Source: Tetramitus jugosus
Lineage: Eukaryota; Heterolobosea; Eutetramitea; Acrasida; Vahlkampfiidae
Length of the DNA stretch: 64,000 nucleotides
NCBI GenBank assembly: GCA_937625935.1
Contig: OW569355.1
Span: 310,001-374,000, forward strand
Direction of reading: 5' to 3'
The notes under the pieces are model-generated. The model saw nothing but the letters and a program-made list of their open reading frames with translations, made no database searches and was not told where the DNA came from. A program made the position numbers and the translations under genes. This document shows, in pieces, positions 21,717 to 63,932 of the stretch (positions within the stretch are counted from its first letter, which is position 1; every line of letters begins with the position of its first letter).

Positions 21717-22844
21717 ATGTGTGACGACGTTCAAGCCCTAGTTGTTGATAACGGATCTGGTATGTGTAAGGCTGGCTTTGCCGGTGATGACGCACCAAGA
21801 GCTGTCTTCCCTTCCATCATTGGTAGACCAAAGCAAAAGTCCATCATGGTCGGTATGGGTAACAAGGATGCCTATGTCGGTGATGAGGCTCAATCCAAGA
21901 GAGGTATCTTGACCTTGAAGTACCCAATTGAACACGGTATTGTGACCAACTGGGACGATATGGAAAAGATCTGGCATCACACCTTCTACAATGAGTTGAG
22001 AGTTGCTCCAGAAGAGCACCCAGTCTTGTTGACTGAAGCTCCTTTGAACCCAAAGGCCAACAGAGAAAAGATGACTCAAATCATGTTTGAGACCTTCTCC
22101 GTCCCTGCAATGTACGTTGCTATCCAAGCTGTCTTGTCCTTGTACGCTTCCGGAAGAACCACTGGTATCGTCTTGGATTCTGGTGATGGTGTTTCCCACA
22201 CTGTCCCTATCTATGAAGGTTATGCTTTGCCTCACGCCATTTTGAGAATTGATTTGGCTGGTCGTGACTTGACTGACTACATGATGAAGATTTTGATGGA
22301 AAGAGGTTACTCATTCGGAACTACTGCCGAAAGAGAAATTGTCAGAGATATCAAGGAAAAGCTTTGCTACATTGCTCTTGACTTTGACGAAGAAATGAAG
22401 AAGGCTGCAGAGTCCTCTGTCGTTGAAAAGTCCTACGAATTGCCTGACGGTAATGTCATCACTGTCGGTAACGAAAGATTCAGATGCCCTGAAGTCTTGT
22501 TCCAACCAAACTTTATCGGTATGGAAGCTGCTGGTGTCCATGAGACCACCTTCAACTCCATTGGTAAGACTGATATTGATATCAGAAAGGACTTGTACGG
22601 AAACGTTGTCTTGTCCGGTGGTACAACCATGTTCGAAGGTATTGCTGAGAGATTGACCAAGGAATTGACCAATATGGCTCCTGCTTCCATGAAGATCAAG
22701 GTTGTTGCTCCACCAGAGAGAAAGTACTCTGTCTGGATTGGTGGCTCCATCTTGGCTTCCTTGTCCACTTTCCAACAAATGTGGATCTCCAAGGAAGAAT
22801 ACGAAGACTCTGGTCCAGGTATTGTCCACAGAAAGTGCTTCTAA
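21717..22844 (+). CDS. Actin (left copy)
   Basis: A 375-residue conventional actin, single exon. It has the [33 protein letters not shown]-type opening, including the ATP-binding [50 protein letters not shown] and the C-terminal [20 protein letters not shown] follow. The protein appears identical to the right-hand copy at 62805-63932; only silent nucleotide changes were noticed. Codon choice is strongly biased to C-ending codons (TTC, GTC, ACC, CTTG), unlike neighbouring genes, as expected for very high expression. It forms filaments for amoeboid movement and phagocytosis. Confidence 0.98.
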
Positions 22845-22853
22845 ATCTTTTCA
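22759..22853 (+). repeat. 95-bp actin 3'-end segment, parent copy of the scar repeats
   Basis: The last 86 bases of the actin coding sequence plus the first bases after its stop (CCTTGTCCACTTTCC to AATCTTTTCA) recur base for base as a direct repeat at 24278-24372. They also occur inverted at 61479-61586 and inside the second actin gene. Confidence 0.9.
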
Positions 22854-24201: not shown

Positions 24202-24277
24202 AGGGTTTAAAAACCGATTCAACCAGATCCAGGAACATTCAATAAATACGTCTTTTATTGAGGCATTCGGTGCTGTG

Positions 24278-24372
24278 CCTTGTCCACTTTCCAACAAATG
24301 TGGATCTCCAAGGAAGAATACGAAGACTCTGGTCCAGGTATTGTCCACAGAAAGTGCTTCTAAATCTTTTCA
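24278..24372 (+). repeat. Actin 3'-end scar (direct repeat of 22759-22853)
   Basis: This 95-bp segment matches the end of the upstream actin gene, stop codon included, but no actin coding sequence precedes it. It starts right after the 3' region of gene X. It is a relic of a lost tandem actin copy or of recombination into actin. The matching scar in the inverted unit has the same junction on its gene X side, so the junction predates the duplication. Confidence 0.9.
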
Positions 24373-24403
24373 ACGAATTCAACAAGTGCACAAAACAATC
24401 AAC

Positions 24404-24420
24404 TTAAGGTGGCGGTCTAC
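24404..24420 (+). repeat. Left terminal inverted repeat of the Fanzor element
   Basis: TTAAGGTGGCGGTCTAC is an exact inverse match to 27160-27176. The outer TTAA may be a target-site duplication, leaving a 13-bp repeat GGTGGCGGTCTAC. On the minus strand it closes the 3' end of the omega-RNA-like fold. Confidence 0.8.
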
Positions 24421-24511
24421 TGTCCATCAAGCCATAATAAAAACATTATGGTTTCCCGATAAGACACCTTAACGCTCCTACATAATCGGGACTTACATAG
24501 CAGCTTGATGG
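24404..24511 (-). ncRNA. Omega-RNA-like fold at the 3' end of the Fanzor gene
   Basis: Read on the minus strand, CCATCAAGC (24511-24503) pairs with GCTTGATGG (24432-24424) in a 9-bp outer stem. Inside it are CCCGAT (24490-24485) with ATCGGG (24460-24455), and CCATAAT (24451-24445) with ATTATGG (24438-24432). The outer and last stems share base 24432. The fold begins inside the end of the Fanzor coding frame (stop at 24493) and runs into the terminal repeat. This is the position and plan of known TnpB/Fanzor guide RNAs. The guide would then be the flank beyond 24404. Confidence 0.6.
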
Positions 24512-26050
24512 AGTGAGCCTTGGAGGTGTTCCACCATTTTGATTAATTCTTTTGCGACCTTTTTCTTCCTCTTGAAGGCATCGGGACGTGACTGTCCATC
24601 CATTTCTGTTCTCAGTAGATGGAGCATGTTCTTGGCCGCATTGATGTCTCTGTTGTGAGTCACTAAACATTTAGTGGTTGCACACTGTTTAACTCCTCGG
24701 ACGACAGAGACATTCAACGTTCCATTCTTGTCTATTCTCTTATGCTTGACTGGCTTCATGTGAGAATGGCAATGATGACATTTCTGACTTGTCATGAACT
24801 CGTCGATCATTTTCACTTTGAAGTGCTCATTCAACTTTTTCAATAGCTTTCCTTTTGGTGTTGGAGCATGTCCTTTGTAACAATGACCAAAACCAGCATT
24901 GCCCATCCCAATTAACATGGTTCTTCCATTTGTTCTCTTTCGAAAGTCATTCATATCATTGGCAATCGTCTTATCTCTCATTATACAGCTATCCCAATTC
25001 AGTCTCTTCACCTTTGGGGTGCAATAAAAATTCAACAAATCATCCTCGACTTTCAATACAGAATTGATGTGTTCAAGGAACAGACCACTTGTTGGTACAC
25101 CGGCCTGTTTGATTGAGTTATGGAGTTCATCCAAGTTCTTCATTTCGTTCCATTCTGCTTTGTATTTCAACAATCACTTGGAGTTTTTTGAATGGTGGGA
25201 CAGATGTCTATATGTTTTGTTAGAAAACACCCACTTCTTGCCATCTGAATCAGCACAACTCACCAATGTAACAATACCCGGGTCAATCCCAACCAAATAT
25301 TCAGCACCTTCGTTCATACTTGCTTCTTTCTTTCTCTTCTTTGCTTCTTTCTGGCCCTTGGATTCCTTTGCCTTATTGTTCTTGTGATTGCCAACGAGTT
25401 TATGTCTCAAGTGTTTGAATATCGGAACAAAGAAGATTCAAATCGACTCTATCAGAACTGACGGTATTTAGGCCTCTGTTGTATTTCAATTCAATGGTTC
25501 AATAACTTGTACATTACCCTTCTTTTGTCCTCCTGGTTTCTTCTTCTGTTGGAGCATATCTGTCAGTTCCGTTGTACCAATCTCCATGCATCTACATTTG
25601 AAGTGGGACAAGGGCAACAATGCAAATGATTTCGTATCATTGCCAATCAGAAACTGTTGAGCATGCCAGTAAAACTTCAGCATGTTATTGGTGTTGTTGT
25701 TCACAAATGATTCATCAATTACTTCGTCAGTTTTAGCACCACCAAGTGTTCGAACCTCTCGGATCAACCCAGGAACGATCTCAATCAATTTCTTTGGAGG
25801 CAGTTTGACAAAATCATAAACTGGAGTGGCAAATGTCAACTTTCGGATGATGCATTCTATGACTCTTCTGTATTCAGACCTTGGGATTGCTTGGTCATTG
25901 TACAATTGATTCATCCTCACTCAAATACTTTCTCAGTCTTTGTTCCAATGTGAACTTGAGCATGTTAGAAATATTGACATTGAGAGACTTGGCAACGTAA
26001 TTGATGGATTTGGAAAATTTCTCATAAATCTTCCTTAGCTTGATTATTAC
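24493..26050 (-). pseudogene. Fanzor (Fanzor2/TnpB-like RNA-guided nuclease), decayed
   Basis: About 520 codons, matching Fanzor2 length. The N-terminal part (VIIKLRKIYEKFSKSINY) is in one frame to about 25895. The next part (25920-25489) is shifted and holds FALLPLSHFKCRCMEIGTTEL, a typical pre-RuvC segment. About 25490-25415 reads in a third frame (RGLNTVSSDRVDLNLL). From about 25440 the RuvC half follows: GIDPGIVTLV (RuvC-I Asp), TMLIGMGNAGFGH, IDEFMTSQKCHHC (Glu plus zinc finger), QCATTKC, and HNRDINAAKNML (RuvC-III Asp). An in-frame TGA lies at 25176-25174. At least three frameshifts and one nonsense codon make an intact enzyme impossible. Fanzor2 is known from Naegleria lovaniensis, which fits the host. 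Confidence 0.85.
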
Positions 26051-26056
26051 GTCATC

Positions 26057-26480
26057 CATGTTGATTGCATGCTCGGCCAGGTGCTTTGCAATCATTCCTG
26101 GATGTTGTTTGGGTAGCCTCTTCTTGATAAATTCACACACTTCTATTCCGTCCAAGCTTTCAAACAGTCCATCACAAGCAACGACAATAAATTGTTCCTC
26201 ATTCGTTTCTGAAGATTTTTCTTGTGATGACACTTTTTCCAACGAAAGAGGTCGTAGATCTGGAGTAACAATCAGAGGTTGTTGTTGAGGTGAAACTCCA
26301 TGCACTTGCTTGTCTTCAAAATCTCCGAATGCTCTACTCATTGCTAAATGACCATCAAGTCTGCTCCGACGAACAAAGCCACCATGAGTCTCTATTCTCT
26401 TCTTTTCCAATGGATCGGTCGGTTTGTGATCCTTTGACAGACCCGTTGATGAGGTTGACATTATCGTCTCTTGTCGGGAT
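26057..26480 (-). pseudogene. PP2C-type protein phosphatase fragment
   Basis: The frame holds late PP2C motifs in order: LSKDHKPTDPLEKKRIETHGGFV, LDGHLAMSRAFGD (the G-x-L-A-x-S-R-x-x-G-D motif), VTPDLRPLSL, and FIVVACDGLFESLDG (metal-binding Asp). It then breaks off at LAEHAINM, where PP2C enzymes continue with DNxT. Without a stop it runs straight into the Fanzor N-terminal sequence. The amino-terminal metal-binding motifs are not found upstream, where frames are broken. It is a gene fragment inside the element, either captured or an older insertion target. Confidence 0.75.
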
Positions 26481-26485
26481 AACAC

Positions 26486-27159
26486 AATTGTTCTCCAAGT
26501 GGCTCAAAACGAATATGTTTATAAATCTTGTGAGTCGAAGAGCAATCCTTTTCATCTCCAGAACTTGAGTTTGTATGATTAGTAACAGAGTTGGATGATG
26601 TAACAACAGAGACTTCAGACCGACCTTGACCACGTAATGTGATGAGTGTTTGTCCTTTTCGACAGCTTTTAAACCGAGGTAGATGGCCCTTTCCGTTGTA
26701 AAGACAGTCTCAACGGAAAATTTTACAACTGCACCAATTCCGCAGCTTAGAGGAAACTCACATTTATTGTTGAAGCTACTTGAAGCTTCTACTATCAATG
26801 AAAGTGCTAGCCGCATCAAAACTGGTTTCGTTGAAGTATAATCGTGTTGGAATATTGAACTACATCTTTTGCACTTTAGACAACAGAAAGATGACGTTAC
26901 TCGTTAGGCAAATGCTTTTTTTCTTCTTGGGTGGTGGTTCAATCTCGCGTGGTAGCTCTTGAAAGAAAACGTGTATTGTTGATATCTAGTCAATGTTTTG
27001 TGTGAGGCTTAAAAATCGGCAATGTTAATCATCGTTATTTCCGTTAGACGTAAAAATGTTTATTGGTGATTGTATGTGGAGTTTTATCATCTATTGTGGA
27101 TGATTAACACTTGTGTATGGATTCTGATGTTTTTTGATCGACCCAATTACGAGGAGTTG
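26486..27159. other. Right part of the element, no intact gene
   Basis: This stretch between the PP2C fragment and the right repeat has short overlapping minus-strand frames that may be the decayed start of the PP2C gene. A 9-bp inverted repeat, TTTCCGTTG/CAACGGAAA, lies at about 26689-26718. From about 26960 it is AT-rich with no feature recognised. Confidence 0.4.
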
Positions 27160-27176
27160 GTAGACCGCCACCTTAA
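27160..27176 (-). repeat. Right terminal inverted repeat of the Fanzor element
   Basis: GTAGACCGCCACCTTAA is the exact inverse of 24404-24420. It is followed by AAATCAAAAAC; the left repeat is preceded by AATCAAC, a loose resemblance too weak to be a longer target duplication. Confidence 0.8.
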
Positions 27177-61478: not shown

Positions 61479-61586
61479 GAAAATTGTTTATGAAAAGATT
61501 TAGAAGCACTTTCTGTGGACAATACCTGGACCAGAGTCTTCGTATTCTTCCTTGGAGATCCACATTTGTTGGAAAGTGGACAAGGC
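61479..61586 (-). repeat. Actin 3'-end scar (right, inverted copy)
   Basis: On the minus strand this matches the actin end from CCTTGTCCACTTTCC through the stop and into ATCTTTTCATAAACAATTTTCT. It keeps about 13 bp more of the actin 3' flank than the left scar. The junction with gene X sequence (GGTGCTGTG next to CCTTGTCC) is the same in both units. Confidence 0.9.
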
Positions 61587-61617
61587 ACAGCACCGAATGC
61601 CTCAATAAAAGACGTAT

Positions 61618-62331: not shown

Positions 62332-62804
62332 CTTGATGGTTCTTACTCTGTTTTCCAAACTTTGAATTGATTGGTTACTGGTATGAGACCTTGGTACAAG
62401 AGCTTGCACCTGGACAGTGTTTGGTTACTCCGGTGTGGGCCGGACTCTGTCTACGGAAAGAAAAGAGAATCAAAACTCACAAATCAGCCGAATCAACTCA
62501 TCTTCCTCGGTTTGTCTCAATAAAATAGAGAACTGTGGTTAGTTCGGTCTCTGTTAAATTGTTTTAAACTTTCTCACTGCCACATCATGGACTCGTTCAT
62601 ACGCCAAGGAATTCGCTGAATCCAATAGCCATAATGACATATTGTGCTGGAACGTCTTGTTCTCCTCTATTTGTTGAATGGGGATGAAATTGAAACCGAG
62701 TAATCATGTTAAGTCAGTCTGATCTCAAACAGAAACTGACAAACATGAGCATCTCATAAGAAAGGGATCGACGTTGTATGTAAGAAAAATGTTTATGAAA
62801 AGAT
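62332..62804 (-). other. Region between right actin and gene X
   Basis: Homologous to the left unit at both ends (gene X upstream part with TTTCTTTCCGTAG, and the actin 3' flank) but unrelated in the middle, about 62540-62730. No gene recognised in the unrelated part. Confidence 0.5.
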
Positions 62805-63932
62805 TTAGAAGCACTTTCTGTGGACAATACCTGGACCAGAGTCTTCGTATTCTTCCTTGGAGATCCACATTTGTTGGAAAGTGGACAAGGAAGCCAAGAT
62901 GGAGCCACCAATCCAGACAGAGTACTTTCTCTCTGGTGGAGCAACAACCTTGATCTTCATGGAAGCAGGAGCCATATTGGTCAATTCCTTGGTCAATCTC
63001 TCAGCAATACCCTCGAACATGGTTGTACCACCGGACAAGACAACGTTTCCGTACAAGTCCTTTCTGATATCAATATCAGTCTTACCAATGGAGTTGAAGG
63101 TGGTTTCATGGACACCAGCAGCTTCCATACCAATAAAGTTTGGTTGGAACAAAACTTCAGGGCATCTGAATCTTTCGTTACCGACAGTGATGACATTACC
63201 GTCAGGCAATTCATAGGACTTTTCAACGACAGAGGACTCTGCAGCCTTCTTCATTTCTTCGTCAAAGTCAAGAGCAATGTAGCAAAGCTTTTCCTTGATA
63301 TCTCTGACAATTTCTCTTTCGGCAGTAGTTCCGAATGAGTAACCTCTTTCCATCAAAATCTTCATCATGTAGTCAGTCAAGTCACGACCAGCCAAATCAA
63401 TTCTCAAAATGGCATGAGGCAAAGCATAACCTTCATAGATAGGGACAGTGTGGGAAACACCATCACCAGAATCCAAGACGATACCAGTGGTTCTTCCGGA
63501 AGCATACAAGGACAAGACAGCTTGGATAGCAACGTACATTGCAGGGACGGAGAAGGTCTCAAACATGATTTGAGTCATCTTTTCTCTGTTGGCCTTTGGG
63601 TTCAAAGGAGCTTCAGTCAACAAGACAGGGTGCTCTTCTGGAGCAACTCTCAACTCATTGTAGAAGGTGTGATGCCAGATCTTTTCCATATCGTCCCAGT
63701 TGGTCACAATACCGTGTTCAATTGGGTACTTCAAGGTCAAGATACCTCTCTTGGATTGAGCCTCATCACCGACATAGGCATCCTTGTTACCCATACCGAC
63801 CATGATGGACTTTTGCTTTGGTCTACCAATGATGGAAGGGAAGACAGCTCTTGGTGCGTCATCACCGGCAAAGCCAGCCTTACACATACCAGATCCGTTA
63901 TCAACAACTAGGGCTTGAACGTCGTCACACAT
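62805..63932 (-). CDS. Actin (right copy)
   Basis: 375 residues with the same protein sequence as the left actin as far as I could compare; nucleotide differences noticed are silent. Same C-ending codon bias. ATP-binding [23 protein letters not shown] and the C-terminal HRKCF are intact. Its 5' leader shares TTGTAATTTAACC with the left copy, but the sequence just before the ATG differs (TTTAAATATAAAAC there). Functional. The upstream region is cut by the window edge. Confidence 0.98.

Follow-up and report, generated by a model that had tools for sequence, protein, structure and literature searches.

The 64,000-nucleotide window analysed here (Tetramitus jugosus contig OW569355.1, positions 310,001 to 374,000 of the forward strand; coordinates below count from its first base) contains, at 24404–27176, the remains of a gene for a Fanzor, an RNA-guided nuclease, enclosed by short inverted repeats. 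The two repeats are exact 17-bp copies, both starting with TTAA, and they are the only two matches to the 17-mer in the window even with up to 3 mismatches allowed; shuffled windows gave a mean of 0.04 matches, and two matches in 0 of 100 shuffles. Between the repeats, one reading frame matches PF07282 above the cut-off of the profile (E = 1.7e-10) and the adjoining one matches PF01385 under its cut-off (E = 0.0025). Both the bounding repeats and the Fanzor motifs that an initial annotation had described from the letters alone are thereby confirmed. That annotation had also counted at least three frameshifts and one nonsense codon; decay is indeed present, and is heavier. A protein search across the whole genome aligned the window copy with residues 158–640 of an intact relative (90% identity), reading through 4 TGA and 1 TAA codons, whereas the N terminus was matched only as short pieces. 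The gene also has internal deletions and a 369-bp insertion derived from a PP2C gene. Judged by its sequence, the window copy is a dead member of a Fanzor transposon family. Its parts are as follows.

24404..24420, + strand: 3' (gene-end) terminal inverted repeat, TTAA first (exact match)
24493..25173, − strand: Fanzor C-terminal part with zinc finger and RuvC-III (NRD) (PF07282, protein search)
25174..25437, − strand: Fanzor RuvC-I part (GIDPG) (PF01385 under cut-off, protein search)
25486..25920, − strand: Fanzor middle part, frameshifted (protein search)
25895..26064, − strand: Fanzor piece between the frameshift and the PP2C insert (protein search)
26065..26433, − strand: host PP2C gene fragment, 369 bp, within the Fanzor gene (PF00481, E = 1.3e-28, frame 25895–26503)
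26436..26666, − strand: Fanzor N-terminal piece, residues 17–93 of the intact relative (protein search, C12:336436-336666)
27160..27176, − strand: 5'-side terminal inverted repeat, TTAA last (exact match)

The initial annotation suggested that intact relatives may exist in the same genome and named a lack of further repeat copies as its refutation; a search of the 26.3-Mb assembly (56 contigs) did not refute it, and found both intact relatives and the repeat recurring as a transposon boundary. The 13-mer GGTGGCGGTCTAC has 26 exact copies, the window pair included, and TTAA precedes all 26. Three types of end, A (TTAAGGTGGCGGTCTAC), B (GGTGGCGGTCCAC/GGTGGCCGTCCAC) and C (TTAAGGATGTAGTTCGGTG, or ending TTG), have one Fanzor gene in common, along with most of what lies from its stop codon to the terminus. 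Type A forms eight end pairs around elements of 2.55–4.08 kb, among them the window element, type B four pairs (3.2–4.6 kb) and type C eight pairs by coordinates; a compact 2,182-bp element on contig C32 has type C ends and a frameshifted Fanzor that matches the query at 40–45%. Because reversed patterns were about as frequent for type A once mismatches were allowed (40 matches versus 33 reversed with up to 1 mismatch and 48 versus 75 with up to 3), though less frequent for type C (23 versus 9 reversed), we counted only exact or near-exact ends that border family sequence. This left out five one-mismatch 13-mer matches without TTAA (C29, two on C30, C39:136807 and C43:195522) as well as C31:454994 (L093; 3 mismatches). 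The counted 3' ends number 40, made up of 20 paired elements, 1 internally deleted copy (C8:461k) and 19 copies without a 5' end. Just two 5' ends (C12:183k and C45:176k) lack a 3' end, so that loss is asymmetric (19 versus 2). Of 66 match rows from the protein search, 19 span residues 1–640 without a stop. Together the copies make up a young family of DNA transposons that carry a Fanzor gene between short inverted repeats and have TTAA at either end.

The intact family protein has 640 residues, with GIDPG at 374, GMGNAGF at 503, DEFMTS at 538 and NRD at 588, and a zinc finger composed of CHHC at 546 and CATTKC at 578 (CX2C...CX4C). The D, E and D of the RuvC motifs are invariant across five homologues, and we take this triad, with the rearranged glutamate assigned to those residues, to be a Fanzor1 trait. 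Among solved structures the sole significant relative is SpuFz1 (E = 5e-14 with a single sequence and 2.7e-22 with a five-sequence profile). The other profile matches up to E = 10 were two chains of LaTranC, presumably a relative of TnpB (E about 0.07 over 27–28 residues), and a hexokinase; no chain named TnpB was matched up to that limit, nor were GtFz1 and PpFz1. Fanzor2 proteins are defined by a TnpB-like size and a compact CX2C...CX2C finger, and the family protein has neither. Its length lies within the 600–700 amino acids reported for most Fanzor1 proteins (PMC11423790; this and the other papers cited were drawn on in part). On length, finger and structural match, the family protein looks Fanzor1-like in a comparison made with SpuFz1 but with no Fanzor2 reference set or tree; the Fanzor2 class given in the initial annotation is, on the same three points, unlikely. 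Pairwise dN/dS among 16 intact genes is 0.13–0.33 (with dS as high as 1.89, and after exclusion of a pair with dS of 0), which indicates that the Fanzor protein has been maintained. Seven relatives were found in protein collections (jgi and ena sources), one of them 98% identical over part of its length.

The copies that have lost their 5' ends carry the most informative junctions. Left junctions were read for 18 of the 19, representing 17 events, as C47 and C52:91k share flanks and were counted once; C3, called truncated as no 5' end was matched, has an unread junction and stands outside the 17. In 4 of the 17 events the left side repeats TTAA and the first 9–22 bases of the right flank (scores are Smith–Waterman, left flank against its own right flank).

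C24: TTAA + 20 duplicated, 2 mismatches (score 20)
C25: TTAA + 21–22 duplicated, 1 indel, about 38 bp of element left (score 23)
C52:269k: TTAA + 11 duplicated (score 15)
C48: TTAA + 9 duplicated (score 13)

The other 13 events score 4–11, and 272 mismatched left–right pairings reached a maximum of 13, once. Flanks of full-length copies score 4–8, TTAA included, in all 14 that were scored (of 20). By eye, the four footprint junctions have 1–3 nt of microhomology. For the left side to hold TTAA followed by as many as 22 nt from the right flank, an unoccupied site must have been broken within its right flank, where the guide is predicted to lie. Two further candidates were set aside: the 9-nt match at C2:615k is internal to the element and not at the junction, and the match at C39 (score 11) is AT-rich.

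The region between the Fanzor stop codon and the terminus is a candidate for the guide-bearing omega-RNA.

24404..24495, − strand: candidate omega-RNA scaffold, 92 nt from the stop codon through the terminal TTAA (sequence letters)
24384..24403, − strand: predicted guide, the first 20 nt outside the element past TTAA

The guide is placed here on the basis of Saito et al. (2023) and Yoon et al. (2023), together with the duplications in the truncated copies. The candidate scaffold holds a hairpin (CCATAAT...ATTATGG). It also has TTAAGG internally, the complement of the terminal CCTTAA, as do 29 of 34 family ends. A pseudoknot between these two was considered and given up: single-strand folding makes the pairing an ordinary closing stem in types A, C and C32, and does not form it in D. 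A different structure from a four-type alignment fold weakens the pairing further, and we claim little for it.

Three published systems share features with this family. GtFz1 of Guillardia theta is likewise a Fanzor1-type protein with TTAA, which is its target-adjacent motif (PMC10432273, PMC11423790), and any base change in that TTAA abolished cleavage (PMC11423790, in which one sentence swaps the motifs of GtFz1 and SpuFz1). It differs in that its locus was reported without inverted repeats and that it cuts at 14–17 nt, compared with 16–21 nt for SpuFz1 (PMC10432273). The Spu-1 element, which encodes SpuFz1, has inverted repeats around a Fanzor1, ghost copies and no transposase between the repeats; none was recognised in the elements examined here either. 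Its scaffold of about 75 nt ends in the repeat and its guide reaches 14–15 nt into the flank, although its motif is CATA rather than TTAA (Saito et al. 2023, PMC10432273); the parts of that paper covered contain no cut footprints for Spu-1. The Chlamydomonas elements CRe-1, CRe-2 and CRe-3 also encode Fanzor1 and, as here, are often truncated at the 5' end with 3' ends intact, but their ends are of Helitron type instead of inverted repeats with TTAA (Bao and Jurka 2013, PMC3627910). Target duplications are absent from copies that reach the consensus 5' end, but most of the rest, above all those with 5' truncation, have duplications of 7–19 bp downstream of TTTT or a T-rich tetranucleotide. Duplications occur in about 70%, 57% and 10% of copies in three Chlamydomonas families, compared with 1 in 200 for a related Helitron without Fanzor; CRe elements also include internal deletions and some captured sequence. 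Bao and Jurka attributed the pattern to one-ended rolling-circle transposition and did not decide whether Fanzor1 causes it (PMC3627910).

We propose that the window element is a dead member of a Fanzor1-type TTAA transposon family that has a candidate omega-RNA and is kept or regained by Fanzor cut-and-copy, a reading to which we give a probability of roughly 0.64. From what the genome displays directly, namely the family, its ends, the coding constraint on Fanzor and the truncated copies with duplicated TTAA and flank, we infer the following course. A TTAA-specific transposase supplied in trans would move the element to new TTAA sites. The candidate omega-RNA, downstream of the Fanzor stop codon, would have the terminal repeat and TTAA as its last bases and would run on into the right flank, which would become the guide. 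Fanzor would then take TTAA as its target-adjacent motif and cut an empty allele or sister site in the guide region, at a predicted position up to about 20 nt past TTAA, and repair of the break by copying the filled site would keep or restore the element. Homology to the filled site would extend as far as the break on the right broken end, which would be the first to prime copying, and the left broken end would bear about 20 nt without a match there; this difference could explain the excess of copies anchored at the 3' end. If copying stopped early and the new strand were joined to the left end, the product would be a copy without its 5' end that repeats TTAA and the guide on the left. A bacterial TnpB of IS200/IS605 elements would be analogous in having a guide from the right flank, a motif at the insertion site and the retention by cut-and-copy that has been proposed for it; its transposition chemistry is different, and the family protein is eukaryotic and Fanzor1-like.

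A broader claim is that truncated copies with duplicated motif and guide are in vivo scars of Fanzor cutting its own site, that the transposon has multiplied by cut-and-copy and that the signature is general (TTAA then 9–22 nt here, TTTT then 7–19 nt in Chlamydomonas), giving both motif and cut position from a genome. We advance it tentatively, at slightly less than even odds. Should the scars be correctly read, the cutting of empty insertion sites by Fanzor would already be on record in genomes, the Chlamydomonas pattern would be accounted for, and the motif and cut position of a Fanzor could be predicted before any biochemistry. It would also answer what service Fanzor renders its transposon; according to Saito et al., the biological role of Fanzors remains unknown (PMC10432273). 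The association of a Fanzor with TTAA and inverted repeats is a variation on a type of element already known, and the scars of the truncated copies are the part worth pursuing. In a literature judged mostly by title and the start of the abstract, with few subscription papers covered, we recognised no publication on this partnership and none that reads truncated copies as Fanzor scars.

Several observations weigh against the cut-and-copy account. The duplication is present in just 4 of 17 events, and C48 alone is borderline, merely tying with the best mismatched pairing. The 14–17 nt cut of GtFz1, the one TTAA enzyme measured, is shorter than the two longest scars (20–22 nt), which fit the 20–21 nt of SpuFz1 on one strand better, and some CRe duplications of 44–443 bp are unexplained by a cut at guide length (PMC3627910). 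The assembly gives one sequence per locus, and a filled homologous allele is therefore not visible in it. Folds of the type A, C and D candidate RNAs are little better than those of shuffles (z = −1.07, −1.19 and −1.83), C32 having the sole convincing fold (z = −4.70), and the four-type alignment fold has no compensatory change. The source of the transposase is a further difficulty. Pfam searches of chosen frames recognised no transposase in any element examined. When the two flanks were joined for 13 of the 20 elements and searched against the genome, no empty site came up to show a TTAA target duplication; the nearest candidate was an actin paralogue on C17, which departs from the flanks no more than about 13 nt away from the junction. 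PF13843 gives 12 match rows (about 10 loci) in the genome, with family ends within about 1.5 kb of 0 of the 12, and none of the type A and type C ends found genome-wide is near such a match. The piggyBac-like nature suggested in the initial annotation agrees with the TTAA boundaries (26 of 26 exact type A ends; one type C side reads TTGG), finds no support in a transposase in the elements examined or in ends shared with the PF13843 matches, and is unproven. The family resembles piggyBac in having TTAA at both ends and inverted repeats, and differs in that piggyBac ends begin CCC and family ends GG.

A rival explanation is that Fanzor is a passenger on a non-autonomous, piggyBac-type TTAA transposon, has no role in its spread, and that the truncations are aborted gap repair after excision by a transposase. 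The ends have TTAA and inverted repeats, piggyBac-type genes are present in the genome, 13 of the 17 events lack a duplication and gap repair is known to yield truncated copies. Excision at TTAA, however, leaves the left end at TTAA, so that the 9–22 nt of right flank in four events go unexplained, and the Fanzor coding sequence is under constraint; we consider this explanation unlikely. Somewhat less probable still is a LINE-type origin, in which Fanzor transcripts were inserted by target-primed reverse transcription to give the truncated copies, and the duplications begin at TTAA by chance. Truncation at the 5' end, intact 3' ends and variable duplications of 9–22 bp are all LINE hallmarks, but the four footprint copies have no poly-A, their 3' junction is the transposon end and the duplication begins at the terminal TTAA. 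C48, moreover, retains sequence as far as a TATA-like motif at a distance of 44 bp from the element end; any transcript would probably start downstream of that point. The least credible of the alternatives is a Fanzor2 in an IS607-like or captured element. The host is, we presume, akin to Naegleria lovaniensis. That species has Fanzor2 (PMC10432273), and some Fanzor2 genes are held in inverted-repeat elements (PMC10711439). Against this stand the size and finger of the family protein and a structural search in which SpuFz1 was followed only by LaTranC and hexokinase.

A captured host fragment suggests exchange between elements. A 645-bp VPS35 fragment matches 22 places in the genome, 21 of them within Fanzor elements or their remnants; the remaining place is a near-full-length match at C22:82336-84489, presumably the host VPS35 gene, in which three stops, perhaps introns, were read through. 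The fragments in nine other copies are 97.5–99.1% identical to that of C22:243k. Among the nine are the D-type copies C19:169k and C6:359k (98.4 and 98.9%), and yet the Fanzor gene of C19:169k is only 69–70% identical to those of types A, B and C. The simplest reading of high VPS35 and low Fanzor identity would be repeated recombination or template switching between elements, and such copying is what copy-based repair would give.

Smaller features of the elements and their surroundings were also recorded. The element at C34:437609-441689 is a mosaic: its ends are of type A, its Fanzor core is closest to that of type C copies (dS about 0.03), and its omega-RNA region is shortened. In the type C element C24:244k, the 3' TTAA has changed to TTGG at C24:244713, with the 5' end paired at C24:248274. 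Long B-type elements contain a second, host-like reading frame (L078:1009-1815, − strand) that by eye is F-box/chromodomain-like; for the chromodomain-like stretch, Pfam gave sub-threshold matches only. The PP2C insert in the window copy is bounded by a 4-bp repeat, TCAA, and its sole other match in the genome, the donor locus C4:144006-144374, is reported as 100% identical with a score slightly under that of the self-match; the insert is a recent patch of host sequence in the dead gene. Flanking the window element is a partial duplicate of an actin gene: copies of the 3' end of an actin gene lie at 24254–24372, 22759–22853, 61491–61609 and 62796–62890 of the window, with more matches on C12, C17, C20 and other contigs. 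Another kind of element, encoding a PF13843-type transposase (C18:38735-39766 and C39:393561-394592; L063 and L064), is present in two copies of about 1.93 kb that are 99.9% identical and have inverted ends (TTCGGCCAGATTTTACC), different flanks and no TTAA at the ends; it has moved recently. A scan of viral contigs, and a search of plasmids with a close relative, came up empty. The 17-mer has seven exact matches in bacterial and archaeal contigs.

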